Assembly (NCBI GenBank): GCA_945923475.1
Contig: CAMELE010000005.1
Coordinates: forward strand, 1-64,000
Reading direction: 5' to 3'
DNA from: an uncultured Mollicutes bacterium
GTDB lineage: Bacteria; Bacillota_I; Bacilli_A; Acholeplasmatales; Anaeroplasmataceae
Length of the DNA stretch: 64,000 bases
The position numbers and the translations under genes were made by a program. Positions 34,428 to 64,000 of the stretch are shown here, one piece after another. Below the pieces are notes generated by a model. The model saw only the letters and a list, made by a program, of their open reading frames with translations. It searched no databases and was not told the DNA's origin. The stretch's first letter is position 1. Every line of letters starts with the position of its first letter.

Positions 34428-36422
34428 TTATTTTTTTTGCATTGCAGCATATGCGTCTTGATATACCTTTTGATATGCATCAAGTCCAGCGTCTTTAAAA
34501 TACTTTAAATATTCATTATAATTCTGTGGTGCAGTTACCTTGTTAGGATCAAGACCACGAATAATATTGAACATTACTTCATTAAATCCTGTATCTGTTG
34601 CTATACCTAATTGAGATACCTGAGCATTTTGATTACGATTAAGTGAGAATGATGCTGGTGCTAAACGATAATAATTTGGATTAGAACCAGCTACTGTAGA
34701 TCCTGTACCAGCATATGTTGGACATCCAACATGCTCATCAGTATAAAGCTTTGTTGCAGCTAAGCCACGCTCAGAAGTATATTGATATTCAAATCCAATT
34801 TCCTTTTGATATCCTATTGGCATTTGACAACCAATTACCTGACGTAAGAAGTTAGAATAATCACCCTTATTGAAGATTGCAGATTGCTCTTTAATAAAGT
34901 TTGTATATGCAGGATATACCTTTCCATCTGGTCCGGTAAATGTTTTTGAAGTATCAATCATATCAGGAAGACCATAATTTGTTAATTGATGTCCTTCGTT
35001 TGTAAAGAAGTAATCAAATAGCTTATAAGCTAATGCTTTTTCACCAGAAGACGCTTGATTAGAAATAGACCATCCATCTGGTTTAATAACACGGCTATTA
35101 TCAACATATTGTTGCCATACACCATTTACATTAGCAACAGGAGGTAAAATTGCTACAACATCACTATTTAATTTATCAGCTGTTGTTGATGCAGTGAAAT
35201 CATAGCACATAAATCCAAATTGCTTTTGCTCAGCTACTGAATCTGAACCATAAAGCTTTGCTCTAATATCTGATTTTGAATTTCCATCTGATAATGAATC
35301 ACCATAGATTAATCCTTCCTTGTTCCATGCTTGGAATTGAAGTAACGTGTTATACACTTCTTGCTTAGAATATGTATATTCAACTTGACCTTGGCTATTC
35401 AAAATGAAACGGCTAGTATATGCATCTGAGCCATGTACCTTAACTCCATCATAATAAGTTCCAAGTCTTAAAATTTCCTCACGATATGCACCTTGACGAG
35501 TAAACCACGCATAAGTTTCTCCATCAGTTTTTCCTGTTAAATATACAGGGTTTGCTTCAACGCAACGGAATAATGCAACTAATTCGTCAATATCATATGC
35601 AGCATCATTTCCAAGATATAATGAGCTTGGATTAGAGTAATCATAATTTCTCTTAATATACTCTCTTAAAGCTTCGGCATATGTCTTACCGTTTTTAACA
35701 GCTAAATTATTCTGAATTTCAATAATGTTTTCAGATGTCTTTTTTGTAGGACGACCAGCAATTTCAAGTGCACGTGGATGAGATTGTGTGTAGAATGGTT
35801 GAACTGCTGTATCACCTACAGCTACAGTGTCAAGTGTAGCATTAGCATCATCTAATAGTTTTGTTACCCAAGTTTTTCTAACATGGAATAAACGAGCATA
35901 GTTTCCAATCTCAGCTACATATGGTAAATGATAAATATGACCATCATATGCAGTAATTGCAGATTTAATATTTGGATTTGCATCTAAATACTTCTTTAAG
36001 TTAGGCATATCATCCAAATGCTCATCAATTTTATCAAATAAGCCTTCTGCTCCTTTTGCCATTAATTGGTCAGCTAATGAGTTTCCACCAAAAACAACTG
36101 CATCCTTAAACTGATTAGCAGCATTAACAGTCATCATTTCTGATGCTTTTTGATTTTGAACTGTTACATCAGTAATATCAATATTTAATTGCTTTTCAAC
36201 GTATTGCCACATTGGCTTTAAATCACCACTTGATACAACAGTTCCATCTGGCATTGTAATAGGGCTTGACATACCATATGTCAAGGTTTTCTTTGCATCT
36301 CCATATGCAAGATTCATCTTTAATTCTTTAGCCTCTGAAGGACCGCTACTATTATTACAAGATGCAAGAGCAAGTCCGGCTACAGCTGCAACTCCTAAAG
36401 TTGCTAATAATTTCTTTTTCAT
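34428..36422 (-). CDS. Oligosaccharide ABC transporter binding lipoprotein
   Basis: This is an extracellular solute-binding protein anchored by lipid. The signal peptide ends in the lipobox LALASC with Cys22. At 664 residues it is larger than most CUT1 binding proteins and fits the LplA/YtcQ-type proteins that accompany LplB/YtcP permeases and bind large or acidic oligosaccharides. It is transcribed directly after the two permease genes, and AAGGAG precedes the start. The ligand is inferred to be an unsaturated or acidic uronic-acid oligosaccharide. Confidence 0.88.
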   Translation of the reverse strand: MKKKLLATLGVAAVAGLALASCNNSSGPSEAKELKMNLAYGDAKKTLTYGMSSPITMPDGTVVSSGDLKPMWQYVEKQLNIDITDVTVQNQKASEMMTVNAANQFKDAVVFGGNSLADQLMAKGAEGLFDKIDEHLDDMPNLKKYLDANPNIKSAITAYDGHIYHLPYVAEIGNYARLFHVRKTWVTKLLDDANATLDTVAVGDTAVQPFYTQSHPRALEIAGRPTKKTSENIIEIQNNLAVKNGKTYAEALREYIKRNYDYSNPSSLYLGNDAAYDIDELVALFRCVEANPVYLTGKTDGETYAWFTRQGAYREEILRLGTYYDGVKVHGSDAYTSRFILNSQGQVEYTYSKQEVYNTLLQFQAWNKEGLIYGDSLSDGNSKSDIRAKLYGSDSVAEQKQFGFMCYDFTASTTADKLNSDVVAILPPVANVNGVWQQYVDNSRVIKPDGWSISNQASSGEKALAYKLFDYFFTNEGHQLTNYGLPDMIDTSKTFTGPDGKVYPAYTNFIKEQSAIFNKGDYSNFLRQVIGCQMPIGYQKEIGFEYQYTSERGLAATKLYTDEHVGCPTYAGTGSTVAGSNPNYYRLAPASFSLNRNQNAQVSQLGIATDTGFNEVMFNIIRGLDPNKVTAPQNYNEYLKYFKDAGLDAYQKVYQDAYAAMQKK

Positions 36423-53791: not shown

Positions 53792-53843
53792 AGACATCTT
53801 TAATTAGAGGCTTATAAGTCAATAACAAAAGATGTCTTTTTTT
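53790..53843 (+). terminator. Terminator between convergent genes
   Basis: AAAGACATCTTT (53790-53801) pairs with AAAGATGTCTTT (53828-53839), followed by TTTT. It ends the XRE gene and may also act on the VWA gene arriving from the other strand. Confidence 0.8.
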
Positions 53844-53858
53844 ATATTCCTATATAGA

Positions 53859-55760
53859 TTAATACTTGTCAATTTCCGTACTTATAACCTGCAGTAATTT
53901 ACCAGTTAATTTTGTAATATCATTACATTCAATAACATTATCATATATTTGAGTTAAATCATTATAACAACCATCTAGAGCAACTGCTATTACTGTATAG
54001 CCTAGTGATTCTAGTTTGATTCTAACATTTCTTGTATCTAAAATAGATTTAGGTGCATCATAAATATCTGTTTGCGAATAATGATATGGTGCCCCATCAG
54101 AAATCATAACAATTATCTTATGCTCAGAATATATTTTCTCAAAATATTTATTAACCCATAATAAGGACAATCCTTCCCGAGTATTTTCCAATTCTAGAGG
54201 TTTAATAATATTGTATTCTTGTCCATTTTTAGCATTAAAAGGTAAAAGGATATAATGATCAACCTCATTAGTTTCATACAATGCCTGATGTAAAACAATA
54301 CTGTGTTTAATATTAAAAGTTTTTAACGTTTCGTGAACCATAACTAAAGAGCACTTCGCATCATCAATGATATTTTTCATTGATCCAGAGCCATCAATCA
54401 TAAATACAATACTTAAATCTGGAGTTTTGGTTTCCTCTTCCTTCAGTTTCCAAAATCTTTTTTTAGGATCAGCAAAATTTTTGGATGATAAAATAGCGCC
54501 TATTACTTTTTTATCTCCATAATATTCATAACGCTCCTTTAAAAGCTTTGTAAATTGGCGGTTATAGCTATTAATGTTTATTTTATAATTATTTTTTATT
54601 CTTTCGTATGCAAACTTTAATTTGTTATCTACTGGTAAAAGTATTTCTTTTACTAACATTCCTTTATGAAGTCTATCCTTAGATAAGCTTCCCTCTTTAT
54701 ATGTGTGTGCGTAGCCAATCACATATTCACTTTGCTTATTTTGCGATTCTATCAGACTATTTAAAGCCTGGATTACGTCGCTTGAAGCCTCGTTTAACAT
54801 TCTACTAAGTTCTTCTATAGAAACAACTTTTACTTCTTTTATTGAAGATGTTACTAGTCCATTATGAGAATTATTATTATAATTAAAAGTTCCAAGACCA
54901 ATCTCAAAATCAACAAGTAAGTCCTTAAGCTTATCAATAATATCATTGATTTTCTTTTGTTCTTCTTCACTTTCCTTCTCGTCACTATCTTTATCTTTAC
55001 CTAGTATTTCTTTGTATAAATACTCCGTAATTTCTATAGATGTTTGATCTCGAAGGCAAGGATCTCCATTTCTAGTAGCAGCAGAAAACAAAGGTGATAA
55101 ATAGTCGATTTCTTTTTCTAAATATTTTGGTACATCGACTTCAAACATTGGATATATATGCTTTACCGAAAAATAATGTAGAATATCCGAAAGAGCATCC
55201 TTTTCTTCATTTTCAATTTGTACATCCCTAAGATTATCATCAATTGTTGAATCATCAAAAAAGCGAGATCTAAACATTGATAAAATCCGGAATAAGTACA
55301 CATATGCATAGGCATTTGAATAGTTTTCTATAGTTTTAGCATCAATAAAAGCATCCTCTATAATATTGCTAACTGTAGCTAAAATCATTGTATAGGTCTT
55401 ACTGTGTTTTCCTTTGGTAGCGATGGATGGAAAATTTGTATAAAGAACATGACTAGATTCGTGAATATTTAAGGCTTTAGTTATCCACGATAAAGTTAAT
55501 TGTCTATTAGTAAAATCAAGAGAAAAGCCAGTATCTTTTAATATATGAATAGTTTTTATCCAAGCACTATCATCACAGAAAAGCTCTTGTGTATGAGGAT
55601 CTATTACAATACTTTTACCATCAGTATAGCTATTATTTTCGAGAATAAAGAACAACTCTATCATCGAGTTTCCTGAAAATGTAGCAGCAAAGTCTTGTTC
55701 TTCTATTCTCCTTTGTTCTGTAACAAAAGCATTTAATTCATTTCTATCTTTTTTATTCAT
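53859..55760 (-). CDS. VWA domain protein, CobT-like, partner of MoxR ATPase
   Basis: This is a 633-residue soluble protein. The C-terminal von Willebrand A domain has the MIDAS motif DGSGSM (about 455-460), the distal Thr, and ISDGAPYHY. The N-terminal half has a zinc-protease-like HESSH motif (about 99-103, NIHESSHVLYTNF), which CobT-type VWA proteins share, and an acidic stretch (SDEKESEEEQKK). It lies 4 bases after the MoxR gene. MoxR-VWA pairs act as metal-insertion or protein-remodelling machines. The client here is unknown. Confidence 0.82.
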   Translation of the reverse strand: MNKKDRNELNAFVTEQRRIEEQDFAATFSGNSMIELFFILENNSYTDGKSIVIDPHTQELFCDDSAWIKTIHILKDTGFSLDFTNRQLTLSWITKALNIHESSHVLYTNFPSIATKGKHSKTYTMILATVSNIIEDAFIDAKTIENYSNAYAYVYLFRILSMFRSRFFDDSTIDDNLRDVQIENEEKDALSDILHYFSVKHIYPMFEVDVPKYLEKEIDYLSPLFSAATRNGDPCLRDQTSIEITEYLYKEILGKDKDSDEKESEEEQKKINDIIDKLKDLLVDFEIGLGTFNYNNNSHNGLVTSSIKEVKVVSIEELSRMLNEASSDVIQALNSLIESQNKQSEYVIGYAHTYKEGSLSKDRLHKGMLVKEILLPVDNKLKFAYERIKNNYKININSYNRQFTKLLKERYEYYGDKKVIGAILSSKNFADPKKRFWKLKEEETKTPDLSIVFMIDGSGSMKNIIDDAKCSLVMVHETLKTFNIKHSIVLHQALYETNEVDHYILLPFNAKNGQEYNIIKPLELENTREGLSLLWVNKYFEKIYSEHKIIVMISDGAPYHYSQTDIYDAPKSILDTRNVRIKLESLGYTVIAVALDGCYNDLTQIYDNVIECNDITKLTGKLLQVISTEIDKY

Positions 55761-55763
55761 AAA

Positions 55764-57272
55764 CTACCACTTGTATAATTTGATAATAGACATCATTGTA
55801 TTTTCTAACACTTTATCCGTTTTACAAATAGGAAGAATTGTTTTATCTGCCGCTTTAATATATCCTTCATATTTTGCCATTTTAGCCCAAGCCTCAAGAT
55901 TACGCGGTGAAATGACTATATCTAGTTCTTCTTTCATAATTTTGTTTTGGATTTGATGATAAACCTTAAGCATATTAGGGATAAATGTTCTACATTCTGG
56001 AACTCTAGCACATAGCATTCTAGTAATGGCCTCATCGGATAGCTTTTCAAGCTCACAAATAACATTGAATCTATTATATAACGCTTGATTTAGCTCGCGT
56101 GTTCCATAATAACCGTAATTCATAGTCGCAAAAAAGCGGAAATCCTTATGCCTTAATACCTTTTCACCATTATCTAATCTTACAAATCCATTATCATCTA
56201 ATAATGAATTTAAAAAGGCTAAATACTGAGGCTTTGCCATATTTATTTCCTCAAATACAACTGCTCCACCTTCGCGTATCGCTTTAGTAACCTCAGATTC
56301 CTTAAATATTATTTTGCCATCAATAGGTATATATTTACCTAGAATAAACTCGTCTAGATTTTCAGTACAATTTATTGTAGCTAAAATAGGTAGCTTCGTA
56401 TCTCTTGCGATTATTTTACAGCTCATAGTTTTACCTGTACCAGCAGGACCATAAAATAATGTCGCAAGTGAATCCCCAGAAACAATAGCGTTAGCTACTG
56501 AACGAAGTTGATTAGGAATAACAAATTCATCACCAAGTGTTGGAATTAAATCTACATCATGATTAAAGCTAAATGTGTTAATTGGCATAGCATTATTTTC
56601 TTTTTGCCTTTCTTCATTAGCTTTTATTATAGCAAGCTTATCTCCCAAAGATATATAATTATAAAATTGCTTTAAATCAATGTCCTCATAAACAAATTCA
56701 TCTGATTCGTCATATTTGTGCCTTTGATAAAAATCTTCACAAACATGAACAAAGGTTTTAGCATTTGAATCAGCAATAAACTTTAACACTACATCCTGAA
56801 TATCCTCATAAAATACATAGTCAAATATAAGCTGACCTACAAAATACAAAAATAGATGACCATGAACTAAATCTTCGCTAACTATTACTCCACTTTTATC
56901 ATAAAATGCAAGTCTAGGTGAAAAACCATCAGTTACAAGTCTTATAGAATCAGCAGTAATACCATATAGTTTTTTAAAATCTGGATCAAGATGCGAGATT
57001 AAAACTATCTGCCTATCCTCCTCTTGCTCATATAAAACATCGTCCATTTCATTATCATTCTTGACACAGATTTTTTTTAAAATATCTGTTGCCATAATGA
57101 CAGCTTCACCAATTTGTTGGCATAGCGTTGTTTTTCCTGTATATGATTGATTATTAACATGTACATAAAAATTTGTTACATCTGATAAATGCTTAAATCC
57201 AAATCCTCTATGTATTTCTTCATCGTTTTCTCTTACCTTTTTAAAGGCTAGCTTAAAATAGTTTATTGACAT
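55764..57272 (-). CDS. MoxR-type AAA+ ATPase with N-terminal extension
   Basis: This is a 502-residue protein. The C-terminal 260 residues form a AAA+ module of the MoxR/CbbQ-like group: Walker A GPAGTGKT (about 274-281), Walker B VVFEEINMA (about 337), sensor 1 FFATMNYG and arginine finger region ALYNRFNVICELE. The N-terminal 240 residues are unrecognised and contain HRGFGFKH and an unusual NNQSYTGKTTLCQQIGEAV that resembles a second P-loop. Four bases separate it from the VWA gene. Confidence 0.82.
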   Translation of the reverse strand: MSINYFKLAFKKVRENDEEIHRGFGFKHLSDVTNFYVHVNNQSYTGKTTLCQQIGEAVIMATDILKKICVKNDNEMDDVLYEQEEDRQIVLISHLDPDFKKLYGITADSIRLVTDGFSPRLAFYDKSGVIVSEDLVHGHLFLYFVGQLIFDYVFYEDIQDVVLKFIADSNAKTFVHVCEDFYQRHKYDESDEFVYEDIDLKQFYNYISLGDKLAIIKANEERQKENNAMPINTFSFNHDVDLIPTLGDEFVIPNQLRSVANAIVSGDSLATLFYGPAGTGKTMSCKIIARDTKLPILATINCTENLDEFILGKYIPIDGKIIFKESEVTKAIREGGAVVFEEINMAKPQYLAFLNSLLDDNGFVRLDNGEKVLRHKDFRFFATMNYGYYGTRELNQALYNRFNVICELEKLSDEAITRMLCARVPECRTFIPNMLKVYHQIQNKIMKEELDIVISPRNLEAWAKMAKYEGYIKAADKTILPICKTDKVLENTMMSIIKLYKW

Positions 57273-57340
57273 AATTCATACCTCTTTATATCGTTTCTTT
57301 TTTCTTTAATTATATCATCATTGTAGGCATATTTAAACAT

Positions 57341-57382
57341 AAAAAGCCTTCTATAACTCATTATTGAGTATATAGAAAGCTT
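57341..57382 (-). terminator. Terminator between SipW-type peptidase and MoxR genes
   Basis: On the minus strand GCTTTCTATATACTCA pairs with TGAGTTATAGAAGGC, followed by TTTTT. It divides the seven-gene minus-strand block into two transcripts, or attenuates the second. Confidence 0.8.
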
Positions 57383-57387
57383 CGTTA

Positions 57388-58023
57388 TTATTTATTATTT
57401 TCTTCCATAAGCTCTGCTTTAATCTCTTCAAGCAGCTCCGCTTTAATATCATCCATACTTTTAGTATTATTTAAGGCTTTTAATTTTTCCTCGTTCTTAG
57501 CTTTTATCCTTTTAGCAATTGATATACCCTCACTAACCACCGCAATTAAATATATCAAAATACAAATAGGTAAAATAAAGCTTTTATTCTTTACTAAGCT
57601 TTTAAGATTTAAGAAATTGACTGTCCTTACGTATTTACCATAATAATTATCTTTTGTAATAATTACATTATCTTCAGATGGGTTTGTATATTCATTATCA
57701 CCTTTAACCCTAAGCGTTCCATCTTCTAAAATCCTTGTAACACGATGAATTATATATTTATTCTCTTCATTGTTTTTGTAAACAATAATATCTCCAACTT
57801 GAGTTTTTTCAAACCCACCCTTTTTTATTAATACTGTTTCTCCCGCTCTTATTGTAGGCTCCATTGATTCAGTTGGAACATAAGAAATAGTATAACCAAA
57901 GAAGGAACTTAGTTGGTTTTTACTTAATGCAACTGTGTTTGTAATCAAAACGCCTATAAGTAATACTAATATACCAACAAGTAATACCGTAACACTACGT
58001 TTTATAATTTTAGCAGCTTTCAT
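57388..58023 (-). CDS. ER/SipW-type signal peptidase I
   Basis: This is a membrane-bound signal peptidase of the S26B type, 211 residues. An N-terminal helix (12-33) precedes the catalytic Ser53 in PTESMEP. His93 in IIHRVTR replaces the Lys used by ordinary bacterial signal peptidases, which defines the SipW/archaeal/ER group. A second helix lies near 147-165, followed by a charged helical tail. SipW enzymes in Bacillus process a small set of biofilm or spore proteins. The substrates here are probably in the adjacent exported-protein gene(s). Confidence 0.88.
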   Translation of the reverse strand: MKAAKIIKRSVTVLLVGILVLLIGVLITNTVALSKNQLSSFFGYTISYVPTESMEPTIRAGETVLIKKGGFEKTQVGDIIVYKNNEENKYIIHRVTRILEDGTLRVKGDNEYTNPSEDNVIITKDNYYGKYVRTVNFLNLKSLVKNKSFILPICILIYLIAVVSEGISIAKRIKAKNEEKLKALNNTKSMDDIKAELLEEIKAELMEENNK

Positions 58024-60008
58024 TTCTTTTGAGCCTTCTTTGCAGCTTTAGATTTTGAAGTATTAGCATTTGAATTATCCATAGTTCTTCCTACTACTTT
58101 AACCCATCTTGGAGGTCTTTGGCTCTTAGGCACAAGCTTTACACCAGTAAACTGCCTGCCAGTAGGTGATGGCATTATAACCTCTGCTTTAGACTTGGTA
58201 TTCGATTTCTTTGGTAAGGATTTTCTTACCTGAGTCTTTGGATCTTTAGGTTTTGTATCTACTAAAGTTTCATTCTTAGATTCAACAGGATTATTAGAAA
58301 TTTGACTAGAAAATTCTTCTTGCGGATTTACTGTATTCTTTGACTCTTCCTTAGAAGAAGATTCATCTATAGTTTCTAAAGAATTATCCTCTTTTATCTG
58401 AGAAGGAGTTTCGTTCATAGCCTCTTCCTTAATCTCTACAGCCTCAGGCGCTAGCTCTTTTATCTTTTTCTCCTGTTCCTTAAGTTCTTTCTCGCGTTCT
58501 CTTTCTTCTCTTCTTAATCTGGCTTCTTCTTCCTTCTTTGCTCTAAGCTCACGAGCAAGTTCCATTTTACGAAGTCTTTCTTGACGCTCTTGCTCCTTTT
58601 TCTCTCTTGCTTTTCTTCTCTCCTCATCCTTCTTAATCTTTGCATCAAGAGCTTTGATTTGATTTTCAAGGCGAAGCTGTTCACGATCCATTTTGTTTAA
58701 GTCAATTTGCTTCTGTTCTTTAATTAACTTTAATACTTTATGCTTTTTCTTTAAAACATCTAGCTTTTCCTGATTATTTGGCATATCCTCCTCAGATACA
58801 TCAAACATTTGAGGATAAATGCTATTTAAGCTATTTAGCATTTCACGGTATACTTTTTTAACAGACATTTCATAGCTTAAGCCTTGTTCTTTTGCTTCTT
58901 TATATACGTCATTAAAATATTCAGCGGTTTTTTGTAACAAATATTCAGATACTTCCTGATGCTCTAAAGGGATATTATCAGGAGTCAATGAATATTCTAC
59001 ATTTTCATCCTTCTGTGGACGATTTCGCATATTCTTTTTAAATTTTCTACCATCAGAAAAATCATAACCAGATACACCACGACGATAAAGGAGATCATTG
59101 ATTAAAAGAACTCCAAGCCTATCATAATCCTCAATGATTACATCATCATCGTTATGATTTCTTTGTTCAGTCTCTACATCATATCCAATATTCCTGCTGT
59201 GCTCTAAAAATATCCACAAATTATAAGCAATTTTGAAATCAGCATTATGTAAAATAACATTAGTTTTCATTATTGGTGGCAAAATATCACTCATTAATGC
59301 TGTTGCTTTATATAGCTCTGAGGATTTTAATCCACGATATTTATCCGAAATCTCTTTAATTTCATTATATAATTCTTTTGCATTTTTTGTTTCTTCAAGT
59401 AGCTGTTTAGAAATACGTAGATTGATTTCTAAATCAATACTTGTTTTATCTAATTTTAAATTATTCTTATATCTAACCTCATCAGCCTCAATTGATTCAA
59501 GGTTATCCTCTAATATTTTAAGTCTTTTATCTAAGAAAATATTTACTCTATTAATTAATGTTTTAATAAATCTATTTTCATAAACTCCCAAGTATTCATC
59601 AGCATAAGTTGTAAGGATTTTAGATGGAATAACCTCTTCATCCTTAATTGATTTTATATACTGAGTATGACTAGCTAAGTGTCTAATCGAATCTGAATTG
59701 ACCTTCTTAGCCTTTTCCATGGGTACAACCTCTTGGTCATATACTAAAGATTTACGAGGATCCTTACATATTTTAAAAAGACTAGGATATGCAGTTTTTA
59801 GCACTTCAACGAAGCTATGGTCAAATCTTTTTGTCTCTTTTATTGATTTATTAAATAATGTTTTTATACCAGTTTGTAATTCTTTAAAAAGAAAATCACC
59901 GTATGGTGATTTAACTTCTTCGTAGCAAGAATAAAATGCTTCATAGAATTGCTTTACGGCCTCATCATTTAACTCATCTTCTGTTGGATTTAAAACTTCA
60001 TTAGCCAT
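58020..60008 (-). CDS. DUF2357-like protein with coiled coil and basic tail
   Basis: This 662-residue protein has three parts. Residues 1-330 are helical and include SIRHLASHTQYIKSIKDEEV and the YENRFIKTLINRV box, like DUF2357 proteins that accompany McrB-type ATPases. Residues 395-535 form a highly charged coiled coil (Glu/Lys/Arg repeats). Residues 535-662 are low-complexity and Lys/Ser-rich. No PD-(D/E)XK nuclease domain, usual for restriction partners, is visible. It overlaps the SipW-type gene by 4 bases and follows the McrB-like gene by 16 bases. The domain call is tentative. Confidence 0.6.
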   Translation of the reverse strand: MANEVLNPTEDELNDEAVKQFYEAFYSCYEEVKSPYGDFLFKELQTGIKTLFNKSIKETKRFDHSFVEVLKTAYPSLFKICKDPRKSLVYDQEVVPMEKAKKVNSDSIRHLASHTQYIKSIKDEEVIPSKILTTYADEYLGVYENRFIKTLINRVNIFLDKRLKILEDNLESIEADEVRYKNNLKLDKTSIDLEINLRISKQLLEETKNAKELYNEIKEISDKYRGLKSSELYKATALMSDILPPIMKTNVILHNADFKIAYNLWIFLEHSRNIGYDVETEQRNHNDDDVIIEDYDRLGVLLINDLLYRRGVSGYDFSDGRKFKKNMRNRPQKDENVEYSLTPDNIPLEHQEVSEYLLQKTAEYFNDVYKEAKEQGLSYEMSVKKVYREMLNSLNSIYPQMFDVSEEDMPNNQEKLDVLKKKHKVLKLIKEQKQIDLNKMDREQLRLENQIKALDAKIKKDEERRKAREKKEQERQERLRKMELARELRAKKEEEARLRREEREREKELKEQEKKIKELAPEAVEIKEEAMNETPSQIKEDNSLETIDESSSKEESKNTVNPQEEFSSQISNNPVESKNETLVDTKPKDPKTQVRKSLPKKSNTKSKAEVIMPSPTGRQFTGVKLVPKSQRPPRWVKVVGRTMDNSNANTSKSKAAKKAQKK

Positions 60009-60024
60009 ATATTCACATCCTATC

Positions 60025-61605
60025 TTAAATCATTTTCTTCAAATCTTCGATATATTCAATTGATACCTTGAAGGCATTCTTACCAAATAATTTATTAAGT
60101 AATTCCACTAGACCATCTAGTTCATTATGTAGGAATGATAAATTTAGTGATTCAAATTTACGTAGGATTTTATTTGCAAGCATATAATCAAGTCCTTGTG
60201 CTTCACTAAATCCACACGCAACATATACTGGAACAAACAGCTTAATTTGTTTCATAATACGGTTACCAAACGCAATCTTGAAATGCTTTTGGATATATTC
60301 ATCTACAACACTAAACGAATCCATAACCTTAGATGAAATTGTAATTTCTGATTGAGCTTTCTTAAATAATTCATCTAAGTAATCAAATGACATTTGGACA
60401 CTATTTGTATAATCACAGTCAATCAATTCTGCTTTATTATTAATTGCAATTGGAACAGCACGGTCATATACCTTATCTGTAATGGTAAATGTTGAATCAT
60501 CCTTATTTGCTGTACCAATAAACCATGTATTTTGCTTAATCAATATCTTTCCGTTAATTAAATATTTTGGATCATTAGGATCACTACCAGGTACTAGGTC
60601 AATTTTCCATTGATTAATGTCTGGCATTTCCATTACTGATAAGAATTCAGCAAAATAATACTCAATACGGGCTAGATTCATTTCATCTAGTACAATTATA
60701 TTTGGTTTATCTGAATATGATGCCTCATATACAGCCTTTAAGAAATCTGTTTCATTAAACTTTTTGGTAAATTCATTTAAATAACCTAATAGTTCTGCAC
60801 GGTCGCGCCATGAAGGTTGAACTGATATAATTGAAGCTTCTTTATTAAAGAATTTTCCCATTGCATATGGTAAAGATGTCTTACCTGTACCAGAAATACC
60901 CTCAAGAATCATAACCTTTGATGTAGCCATACCAGCAAAAAATCTAGATACAATTTCTTTTGTATAGTACAAATGAAGTTGAGAGGCACTAAATTTGATA
61001 AATCTATCAACTAATTGTGGTAGGCTTATCATATCTGATGCTGGCATAATTGTAAATTCTGAATTTAATTCATATTGTTGGTCAACCTGAGTCAACTTTG
61101 TAAATCTTGATAGGCTTGGATCACGCTCTTGCTTACGATTTCCACGTAAACTTGAAGAAGTGGAACGTGGCATCATGCCATTATCTCCAGGCCTTAACAC
61201 CGCTTGAGACCCACCAATTTGATTAATTCTTAACGCAAGAATCTTATTCTTTTCCTCAATAAGATCTAGCACCTTATCATTTAATGTTGCAATTTCATCC
61301 AGTAATTCTTCCTTATCAACCTCACGGCGACGGAAACTAAAGTATTTCCTTAAAAATTGGAAGATAATTACAAGAAGTAAAACGATAAATACTATATTTA
61401 CTAACGATACTGTTACAAGTGCTACCCAATCTAATACTCCAAAATCAGGATTGTTAACACATTGTTGACCTATATTTTTAAAATACTCTTTAGGATAGTA
61501 ATAAAAGATTTTAGAGAACAAGCTAAATAGCGTTAAGAACCATTCCTTAATGTTTTCTAAAACTGTTTTTAAAAAATTTATATAATATTCCGAAAACTGT
61601 GCCAT
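60025..61605 (-). CDS. Membrane-anchored McrB-like AAA+ ATPase
   Basis: This is a 526-residue protein. One or two membrane helices lie near residues 55-85 (VALVTVSLVNIVFIVLLLVI), followed by a short coiled coil. The AAA+ module has Walker A EGISGTGKTSL (about 232-242), Walker B IIVLDEMNLARIEYYFAEF (about 303-321) and GTANKDDSTFTITDKVYDRA, the McrB-type sensor and arginine segment. No DNA-binding N-terminal domain is seen, and the membrane anchor is unlike restriction McrB. It is more likely a remodelling motor for envelope proteins. Confidence 0.8.
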   Translation of the reverse strand: MAQFSEYYINFLKTVLENIKEWFLTLFSLFSKIFYYYPKEYFKNIGQQCVNNPDFGVLDWVALVTVSLVNIVFIVLLLVIIFQFLRKYFSFRRREVDKEELLDEIATLNDKVLDLIEEKNKILALRINQIGGSQAVLRPGDNGMMPRSTSSSLRGNRKQERDPSLSRFTKLTQVDQQYELNSEFTIMPASDMISLPQLVDRFIKFSASQLHLYYTKEIVSRFFAGMATSKVMILEGISGTGKTSLPYAMGKFFNKEASIISVQPSWRDRAELLGYLNEFTKKFNETDFLKAVYEASYSDKPNIIVLDEMNLARIEYYFAEFLSVMEMPDINQWKIDLVPGSDPNDPKYLINGKILIKQNTWFIGTANKDDSTFTITDKVYDRAVPIAINNKAELIDCDYTNSVQMSFDYLDELFKKAQSEITISSKVMDSFSVVDEYIQKHFKIAFGNRIMKQIKLFVPVYVACGFSEAQGLDYMLANKILRKFESLNLSFLHNELDGLVELLNKLFGKNAFKVSIEYIEDLKKMI

Positions 61606-61649
61606 GCTTTGTCCTCCCTTCTTTTATATATTTTATGTAAATTGACTAA

Positions 61650-63023
61650 TTATTCAGCCTTTGTACTTTTTTTAGTAGTACTCTTTGGACTGGCAGCCTT
61701 TTTTGTAGCAGTTGAAGTAGATGGTTTCTTAGCAGCTGTTGTAGATTTGCTAGTAGTTTTCTTAGCAGCTGTATCAGACGTTTTCTTTGTTGTAGATGTA
61801 GAAGCCTTTTTTGTAGTAGTTGTAGTCTTCTTTGCCGTAGAAGTTGGGCTCTTTTTAGCTGTTGTTGTAGCTTTCTTTGCAGGAGCCTTCTTAGGCTTTG
61901 CGTCAGATTTTTCTTCATTTGCAGGAGTTTCTTCTTTAACCTCTGCAGGAGCTTCTTCTTTTACTGATTTCTCTACTACATTTTGAGTTTTTTCTTCAGT
62001 CTGAGGTTCCTCAACTTGAACTTCTTCAACTGGAATTTCTTCTACAGGTGCAGCTTCTTCCGTAACTTCCTCTACAGGAGCAATTTCTTCTACAGATTGC
62101 TCTTCAGGAGCATTATCCAAAGCACTAGTATCTTCTGCTGCCTCATCCTTAGTCTCTTCAGAAGCTTCTTTGGTTGGCTTTTCTAAAGACTCTTCACTAG
62201 ATTCGTTTGCAGCAGGTGCAGCTACACCCATTTCTGCAAGTAATTGTGCTCTAAGCTCAGCCTTTAGCTTCTCTTTGTCATCATCAGTCATAACTAAATC
62301 AGCTTCAGGCTGTAAATTTTTCTTTATTTTTTCTTCTCTTACCTTCATTATATTATAAATTAGGTAAGCAATTTCTAATAACAATAATGCTGCAATTGGA
62401 AGAATTATAATAGAAACAAAATGGTTATTAATTGTTTGAATAACCTTACCAAATCCCTCCCATTTAGTAGAATAAATTCCTCTAATCTCGATAGATCCAA
62501 AGGCTTGGAAGCCCTCTGAGCCAAACGTTTGTTGTAATATATTTAAACAATTATCATTTGTCAAAATTGATATATCAAAACCATTACTTTCCTTCATAGC
62601 CTTATCGCCAACTGTATAGAAAAGGTTAGCTTCCTTATCAATATATACGATTCTATGGGTATTTAATGCAGTACTTACACCAGTGTTAGCAGCTAAATTA
62701 TTGTCATAGAAGGTTACAATATCTCCAACCTTAAGATTAGCAATTCTATCCTCTGACGCAGTTTTTACAATAATCATATCTCCAGCCTTAAAAGAATCTT
62801 CATAATTACCTTCCATTGAGTCAGACAATACGTTTAAATATCCAATACCAAAAATGTTTGGTATTCTATCCTTTTCATTTTTCGCACGAATATTTGAGAT
62901 TGAGAATAATAAAACTAATAAAATAATAGCATAAAAAATAACATTAAAAGCTATCCTAACGCCTAACCATACCTTTTGTTTAGGTGTTCTTTTAGTTTTT
63001 TCTTCCTTTATTTCGTTTTGCAT
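61650..63023 (-). CDS. SipW-type signal peptidase with histone-like tail
   Basis: This is a 457-residue protein. An N-terminal membrane helix (about 22-45) precedes catalytic Ser69 in LSDSMEG, and His123 in NTHRIVYID gives the Ser-His pair of ER/SipW-type peptidases. A second helix lies at about 205-230. Residues 240-375 are acidic (Glu/Pro/Val repeats such as VEEIPVEEVQVEEP), and 375-457 are Lys/Thr/Ser/Ala repeats like histone H1. The tail is in the cytoplasm if the catalytic domain is outside. AGAGAGGTG precedes ATG 63023. Confidence 0.85.
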   Translation of the reverse strand: MQNEIKEEKTKRTPKQKVWLGVRIAFNVIFYAIILLVLLFSISNIRAKNEKDRIPNIFGIGYLNVLSDSMEGNYEDSFKAGDMIIVKTASEDRIANLKVGDIVTFYDNNLAANTGVSTALNTHRIVYIDKEANLFYTVGDKAMKESNGFDISILTNDNCLNILQQTFGSEGFQAFGSIEIRGIYSTKWEGFGKVIQTINNHFVSIIILPIAALLLLEIAYLIYNIMKVREEKIKKNLQPEADLVMTDDDKEKLKAELRAQLLAEMGVAAPAANESSEESLEKPTKEASEETKDEAAEDTSALDNAPEEQSVEEIAPVEEVTEEAAPVEEIPVEEVQVEEPQTEEKTQNVVEKSVKEEAPAEVKEETPANEEKSDAKPKKAPAKKATTTAKKSPTSTAKKTTTTTKKASTSTTKKTSDTAAKKTTSKSTTAAKKPSTSTATKKAASPKSTTKKSTKAE

Positions 63024-63040
63024 ACTAGCACCTCTCTTTT

Positions 63041-63119
63041 TATCTTATGTTAATATTCTATCACAAACAAAAATAAAATAAAATATTAACATAAGATAGC
63101 GTTTTTAAAAAAACGCTAT
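63041..63119 (-). other. Inverted repeat and hairpin upstream of the peptidase gene
   Basis: TATCTTATGTTAATATT at 63041-63057 is perfectly inverted at 63082-63098, with a 24-base loop. A second stem (ATAGCGTTTTT / AAAAACGCTAT, 63096-63119) includes the stop codon of the upstream gene. No T-run follows, so an mRNA-processing or operator role is as likely as termination. Confidence 0.6.
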
Positions 63120-64000
63120 TGTTTTATAATTGTTTCCATTTCTAAGCCAAAGCTAAATGTACTTCCTGAAAGCTCTGTAACGCAATCGGCATCCCAACCC
63201 TCAAGCCACAAATATGCAGTAAATTTTTTCATTTTACCACTTGTGAAGCCTTCAGTTTCCGAAATAATTGTATTTGAATCCAAAAAAACATCATTTCGAT
63301 CATTTTCAGGAAGTGTAAGAGGCTTATCCATCATTCTATTATACACATCAAGTGCCATATTATATGAAGCATTTATTCCACCAAAATTATATAAGCCATC
63401 ATTAACATTAGGAGCGCTACCACCAAAGTCATAAATAGTCGATATGGGAGTAGTTTTTGAAGATTTAGCTCCAATATCTGTTACATCATAGCTTTCTAAT
63501 CCCAATCTCATCGCATTTTTTGCGTTAATACGAATATTTGAAGACATACTTTCCTTTTCAAATGGAAATTGGGAATTATTAAAATCTAGTATTGATGTAG
63601 AAATGTATGAATCACTTGAATCTAATGTAATACTATTTGTAAAATTTACAGATAAACTTCCATCAGCTGTTGCTAAAGTGTTAGTCGCAAGATAAAAATC
63701 AAATGATATGTATTCATAATCATTTACGAATGTTCCTTCGATTCCTTCAAACCCTGAGGATAATACATTATAATCCTTTGGAGTAATAGGCTTTAAATTG
63801 ATATTAAATAATTTATCAATGCTTTTTTCATCTAAACCTGATGCACTAATACCTCTTTTATTTAGAACAGCCTTTTTTACATCTAAGTCACTTAAGCTAT
63901 CATAAAAATGAATACCATCGGTGGAGATTTTTAAGGATGCTCCACCGTTGATATTAAATGAAAACTCTTCAACATTATTAGTTCTATGCATCGCATACCA
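63116..64000 (-). CDS. Predicted exported protein, 5' end outside the window
   Basis: At least 294 codons are visible and the frame stays open to the right edge (WYAMHRTNNVEEFSF), so the true start is further right. The visible part is rich in Ser, Asn, Thr, Asp and aromatic residues, almost without Cys, and looks like a beta-rich surface protein. The YAWY-like segment just before the mature-looking sequence resembles the cleavage region of SipW-dependent secreted proteins. It is directly upstream of the SipW-type peptidase gene, which suggests that it is a substrate. Confidence 0.6.
   Translation of the reverse strand, partial: WYAMHRTNNVEEFSFNINGGASLKISTDGIHFYDSLSDLDVKKAVLNKRGISASGLDEKSIDKLFNINLKPITPKDYNVLSSGFEGIEGTFVNDYEYISFDFYLATNTLATADGSLSVNFTNSITLDSSDSYISTSILDFNNSQFPFEKESMSSNIRINAKNAMRLGLESYDVTDIGAKSSKTTPISTIYDFGGSAPNVNDGLYNFGGINASYNMALDVYNRMMDKPLTLPENDRNDVFLDSNTIISETEGFTSGKMKKFTAYLWLEGWDADCVTELSGSTFSFGLEMETIIKQ

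Follow-up and report, generated by a model that had tools for sequence, protein, structure and literature searches.

A candidate CoCoPALM locus of Anaeroplasmataceae: a membrane McrB-like GTPase beside two tailed SipW peptidases and exported proteins

Closest described systems

The name CoCoPALM comes from a single paragraph of Bell et al. (2024, eLife, PMC11090510), which treats this type beside the CoCoNuT systems, predicts a link to pilus assembly and gives no tested function. Common to the passages on CoCoPALM and to the locus analysed here are a McrB-type GTPase with a transmembrane (TM) segment and a coiled coil, a nuclease-less coiled-coil DUF2357 partner and signal peptidase neighbours. 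Beyond what those passages describe, the present locus has a cassette of exported substrates, two SipW-type signal peptidases, c-di-GMP genes and a helix in the SipW tails. Literature searches returned no later paper on CoCoPALM and no test of its function, and nothing relevant on SipW together with McrB or with Acholeplasma.

SipW-dependent fibres are known from two Bacillus systems, SipW-TasA/TapA of B. subtilis (PMC9674648) and CapP-TasA-CalY of B. cereus (PMC13082335), in which the TasA fibre forms by means of an N-terminal donor strand; the CalY/TasA system is sortase-independent (PMC13082335). In Clostridium perfringens, SipW is required for secretion and polymerisation of the beta-rich filament protein BsaA, and sortase is dispensable (PMC7395162). 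TasA and BsaA are thereby established SipW-dependent polymers, and as no NTPase is described in the relevant passages of these papers (PMC9674648, PMC13082335, PMC7395162), an NTPase is not needed in principle. The two Bacillus systems resemble the present locus in that a SipW-type signal peptidase adjoins beta-rich exported proteins, but the passages on them describe no McrB or DUF2357 protein, and the present locus has two SipWs with long tails. The BsaA operon likewise differs, having no GTPase as described in the passages concerned (PMC7395162).

The type IV restriction system McrBC of E. coli shares with the locus a McrB-type AAA+ core (hhalign probability 95%, E=3e-8 between the two McrB proteins) followed by a DUF2357-class partner. 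It differs in that the present locus has a predicted membrane anchor and a partner that cannot be aligned to McrC; neither of the features expected of McrBC restriction, a nuclease in the partner and a DNA-binding domain on McrB, was found.

Gene content and order in relatives

The window, i.e., the whole 64,000-nucleotide stretch analysed, corresponds to bases 1-64000 of contig C5, which is 79,103 bases long. Seven consecutive minus-strand open reading frames were confirmed at its right end, and profile searches agreed with the domains that a sequence-only reading had assigned to them: a CobT-like VWA protein, a CobS/MoxR-like AAA_5 ATPase, SipW-a, a DUF2357 protein, a McrB-like AAA+ protein, SipW-b and an exported protein. 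The last of these genes crosses the window edge (full gene C5:63116-64084, 322 aa, signal '...TSTYAWY'). That reading had also proposed that more SipW-dependent exported proteins be sought to the right, where Tas2, Tas3, Tas4 and two GGDEF/EAL genes were found on the same strand, 'Tas' being a working label coined here for the exported proteins. The genes for SipW-a and DUF2357 share 4 bases. A promoter and terminator scan performed at chance level and did not flag the hairpin listed below, which was seen by eye.

53797..57356, minus strand: inserted segment outside the conserved system, with a MoxR/CobS-like ATPase (55764-57272) and a CobT-like VWA protein (53859-55760)
57341..57382, minus strand: imperfect hairpin with a T-run 3' of SipW-a, a possible terminator
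57388..58023, minus strand: SipW-a, SipW-type signal peptidase; S53/H93 dyad 100% conserved; cytosolic tail helix
58020..60008, minus strand: DUF2357 protein (McrC-class partner); no nuclease found; C-terminal coiled coil and low-complexity end
60025..61605, minus strand: McrB-like AAA+ GTPase, predicted to be membrane-anchored; TM segment and coiled coil; Walker A/B and N-K-D-D motif invariant among relatives
61650..63023, minus strand: SipW-b, SipW/ER-type signal peptidase; S69/H123 dyad; long cytosolic tail
63116..64000 in the window, gene continuing to contig position 64084, minus strand: Tas1, exported and beta-rich; signal box STYAWY; W-x-E-G-x-D motif
C5:64120-64980, minus strand: Tas2, exported protein, upstream beyond the window
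C5:65003-66259, minus strand: Tas3, exported protein, upstream beyond the window
C5:66262-66996, minus strand: Tas4, upstream beyond the window
C5:67241-68797, minus strand: EAL1, GGDEF/EAL protein, upstream beyond the window
C5:68801-71197, minus strand: EAL2, GGDEF/EAL protein, upstream beyond the window

A scan of GTDB genomes with a McrB profile yielded 421 relatives, and the best 80 of the 421 loci were examined. Most of these 80 are labelled Acholeplasmatales, Anaeroplasma, Tenericutes or unclassified Bacilli/Bacillales bins, with Anaeroplasma bactoclasticum, Peloplasma aerotolerans and strains of Paracholeplasma vituli as named carriers. Within this best-matching set, SipW-b lies immediately 5' of McrB in 72/75 loci, DUF2357 immediately 3' of McrB in 74/78, SipW-a at most two positions after DUF2357 in 54/62, and a Tas gene precedes SipW-b in 57/65; median gaps between cassette genes are 33 and 14 bases. 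The usual order in relatives is EAL2, EAL1, Tas4, Tas3/2/1, SipW-b, McrB, DUF2357, SipW-a, and many loci include a giant exported protein (1000-2300 aa). Because this arrangement recurs in most of the best 80 relatives, it reflects more than chance. Distances among the McrB, DUF2357 and SipW-b proteins correlate at r=0.80-0.88 (permutation maximum 0.13), a correlation to which shared vertical descent contributes.

With the DUF2357 protein as query, matches were obtained in 30/41 related genomes. McrB was matched at E<=1e-30 in 74/113 genomes of the order, a count that takes in paralogues, and at 20 loci picked from the best matches in the class's other families, the association is mostly kept with the genes shuffled. 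Tandem cassettes sharing a contig were seen (L105/L110, L116/L109 and L101/L085), one copy having SipW-b and McrB without DUF2357; such a copy may use the partner encoded by the other.

Among the 41 genomes, the locus occurs both with and without genes for penicillin-binding proteins (PBPs) or sortase, so that neither gene is needed. Penicillin-binding transpeptidase matches were found in 12/41 genomes, including that of the window, which has three, together with the one sortase match of the 41 genomes. A 'wall-less host' was therefore rejected as an explanation, and the claim is limited to independence from sortase and PBP genes.

Features of the encoded proteins

The McrB-like protein matches E. 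coli McrB structures at a profile E=1e-3. A search for a DNA-binding specificity domain found none; in its place hydropathy predicts a TM segment near residues 54-90, in line with the membrane anchor of the sequence-only reading, followed by a heptad-rich stretch at 92-125. The protein thus has the N-terminal TM segment and coiled coil (FtsB-like) of the CoCoPALM GTPase, as judged by hydropathy and heptads. The CoCoPALM motif NxD, usually followed by D/E, is present as N367-K-D369-D370, although a gapless alignment to E. coli McrB satisfies NxxD too and the motif class is therefore incompletely separated. No variation was seen across 81 McrB proteins at Walker A, Walker B, N367, D369 or D370 and, by their conserved active-site residues, McrB and both SipWs look active.

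The partner belongs to the DUF2357 family (PF09823, E=1e-11, above the cut-off), and its family and profile search returned no nuclease family and no PD-(D/E)XK domain, in keeping with the nuclease-less partner originally read from the sequence. Its C-terminus is of low complexity, and the AF2 model (pLDDT 80) has a long terminal helix (412-479). Comparison of this model with the PDB gave no significant match, McrC included, and hhalign found no match between the protein and E. coli McrC; the link to McrC accordingly comes from the Pfam profile and from Bell et al. (2024). With this coiled-coil partner, the GTPase features and the signal peptidase next to McrB, the gene set and protein features lead us to assign the locus to CoCoPALM, so that it is not categorically new. 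The sequence-only reading had called the system undescribed, a claim that falls, as the paragraph of Bell et al. (PMC11090510) names the same combination.

That paragraph also places CoCoPALM beside CoCoNuT systems (PMC11090510), and a function in defence, although unlikely, is the best placed of the alternatives to the reading set out in the next section. The McrB/DUF2357 pair would then be a type IV restriction-like or abortive module whose task is to detect phage at the membrane or to protect the fibre, the SipW and Tas proteins forming the structure under guard. McrB is of a restriction-derived family, and it matches the PADLOC defence family PDC-M26A (E=4e-39), as do its paralogues, but PDC-M26A is itself a candidate family. 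Against a defence module, domain searches of the proteins and their recurrent neighbours gave no nuclease, HEPN, methyltransferase or DNA-binding domain, gene order is kept across the bacterial order instead of being patchy, and the recurrent neighbours are surface proteins. Restriction in particular had been judged improbable in the sequence-only reading, which is borne out by the lack of a detected nuclease, the membrane McrB, the surface-protein neighbours and a region to the right that is not a restriction system.

Several sister loci have a different composition. At L050, L051, L052, L054 and L148, where SipW is lacking, the pair of TM-bearing McrB and DUF2357 has as neighbours a GGDEF/EAL protein and a giant protein that bears a TM segment at its C-terminus; the giant protein of L050 has seven cadherin-like stretches, and L148, from another family of the class, is adhesin-type. 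At L048 (5999-13514) and L049 (5790-15000), a single DUF2357 protein lies between two TM-bearing McrB proteins, and a giant exported protein comes next. A paralogue in the window's own genome (L004, 4534-8735, G000:C22) is a McrB-like ATPase fused to ~12 predicted TM segments; it matches PDC-M26A, and the DUF2357-like protein beside it has an end that resembles a zinc ribbon. A tree built from 113 distinct sequences places adhesin-type loci among SipW-linked ones, and the common neighbours of McrB/DUF2357 pairs are surface proteins, not nucleases.

Both peptidases are of the ER type and have Ser-His dyads, as first read, that are 98-100% conserved among relatives; SipW-a exceeds the cut-off of the SipW/ER-type profile TIGR02228 (E=8e-21) and SipW-b falls below it (E=4.5e-11). 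McrB-linked SipWs carry a cytosolic tail of 50-60 residues (median 58 aa), as compared with a median of 20 aa in a control set of 19 SipW-type peptidases of the same order that do not adjoin McrB, several of which adjoin SipW-type exported proteins of their own. A tail helix of the type E-R-E-K-I-R-Q-Q-I-L-E-E-M-K-K is common to SipW-a and SipW-b, and the motif is specific to linked peptidases (109/134 versus 1/19 unlinked; ~42/134 in shuffled linked tails); it was defined after inspection of the linked tails, whereas the length difference is independent of it. Linked and unlinked tails differ at p=2e-11 for length and 8e-11 for motif, values that overstate independence because the sequences are related. 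The tail is a plausible physical tie between peptidase and proposed motor, and would dock on the McrB or DUF2357 coiled coils.

A separate signal peptidase I is encoded on contig C17 of the same genome; a housekeeping role for the SipWs was therefore rejected, and both appear dedicated. A second SipW cluster, McrB-free and with 2-3 short-tailed SipWs (L173-L177, L183), was also observed, in several cases with SipW-type exported proteins in the same genomes. Elsewhere (L170, 6242-8518, G000:C29), a peptidase of 145 aa that matches the SipW profile weakly stands beside an ABC transporter and a small PqqD-like protein, in what may be a cluster for peptide export.

Among Tas1-3 homologues, 113/123 carry the signal box [ST]-(x)-[FYW]-A-[WYF]-x, and exported proteins of relatives have the SipW-type signal TTFAWF. 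A match to this pattern at window position 35502 was discarded as chance, as it lies inside a solute-binding protein. The model of mature Tas1 is beta-rich (pLDDT 88) with a poorly ordered N-terminus, and its top four PDB matches are donor-strand pilins, none of them significant (best E=0.014). Tas1 shares with TasA and camelysin a SipW-type signal and a SipW neighbour, but differs in that no Pfam or PDB sequence match to TasA/camelysin and no significant fold match was found, and its identification as TasA was rejected. The N-terminus of Tas4 is basic, its TM segment is without the usual SipW box, and its ectodomain ends in the W-x-E-G-x-D motif. Away from the main locus, two more exported proteins with SipW-like signals, one of them large, were observed at L169 (6958-9667, G000:C32). 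Inspected by eye, EAL2 retains the EAL active-site motifs and EAL1 looks degenerate (D-G for D-D) and could be a c-di-GMP receptor. The window's genome has 11 GGDEF matches, which indicates that c-di-GMP signalling is not confined to the locus.

Proposed function and its alternatives

The CoCoPALM-type locus is probably an energised, SipW-coupled machine that releases and assembles a membrane-anchored, SipW-dependent, sortase-independent surface fibre. An envelope or export machine for a fibre or coat had been the sequence-only reading; its export part agrees with a conserved unit that includes SipW-type exported proteins, its fibre or coat part we infer, and its inclusion of the MoxR-VWA pair does not hold. 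In the proposed mechanism, Tas1-3 would exit via Sec with their SipW-type signals, which SipW-a and SipW-b would cleave on the outer side, and Tas4, given its TM segment, may remain in the membrane as base or initiator. The C-terminal tail helices, docked on coiled coils of McrB, the DUF2357 protein or both, would hold both SipWs to the cytosolic machine. McrB would assemble into a membrane-associated ring, with the DUF2357 protein stimulating its GTPase in the way that McrC acts on McrB. Nucleotide turnover by McrB, presumably of GTP, would gate or drive subunit release and addition, and the neighbouring GGDEF/EAL proteins may couple the machine to c-di-GMP. A more specific proposal is tentative, namely that a nuclease-less McrBC became a GTP-driven assembly motor for sortase-independent fibres, coupled physically through the cytosolic tails of the two SipWs, for which there is no experimentally known counterpart.

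The same coiled coils on McrB, DUF2357 and the SipW tails would also suit a nucleotide-switched regulatory scaffold, one clustering SipW and responsive to c-di-GMP but generating no force, as would the two upstream GGDEF/EAL genes with their degenerate-looking EAL1. This second alternative is improbable: the invariance of all NTPase motifs suggests that hydrolysis matters, although a switch needs hydrolysis too. AAA+ rings often unfold or extract membrane proteins, and the McrB/DUF2357 pair could be a quality-control or extraction machine that, instead of building the fibre, frees the membrane of SipW precursors, of signal peptides after cleavage or of subunits that have stalled, substrates that the SipW tails could present. 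This third alternative is more doubtful still, as neither a protease partner nor any feature for pulling substrates was seen and an unfoldase role is not known for McrB rings.

The MoxR-VWA pair lies on the same strand as the locus and adjacent to it in the window's genome. In a relative that is 97% identical across the region (G002), the alignment to the window stops at 57,357 and picks up again at 53,796, G002 having ~104 bases where the window has 3.56 kb, and MoxR was found in 1/41 genomes searched, the window's own. The MoxR protein is nearest to phage CobS-like proteins (phrog_249, E=2e-38), and the pair may therefore be of phage origin. The co-occurrence that the sequence-only reading had expected was found for the SipWs, McrB, DUF2357 and exported proteins but not for MoxR-VWA, which is a lineage-specific insertion, a passenger and not a component of the conserved system; nor does a comparison with MoxR-VWA metallo-complex maturation extend to the relatives' loci. 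That McrB and MoxR-VWA are two AAA+ motors of one machine, as had been suggested, is thus very improbable.

The SipW tail helix, the substrate cassette and the exclusion of MoxR-VWA are additions beyond the naming of CoCoPALM. Candidate substrates, a fixed gene order and a peptidase tail helix make CoCoPALM testable, with named cultured carriers. If the proposed fibre-assembly function is true, an immunity-type GTPase would have been re-used for secretion, and SipW fibres, which the passages on Bacillus and Clostridium describe without such a motor, would gain an energy source and a membrane anchor. It would also provide a route to surface fibres in bacteria without sortase and penicillin-binding proteins.
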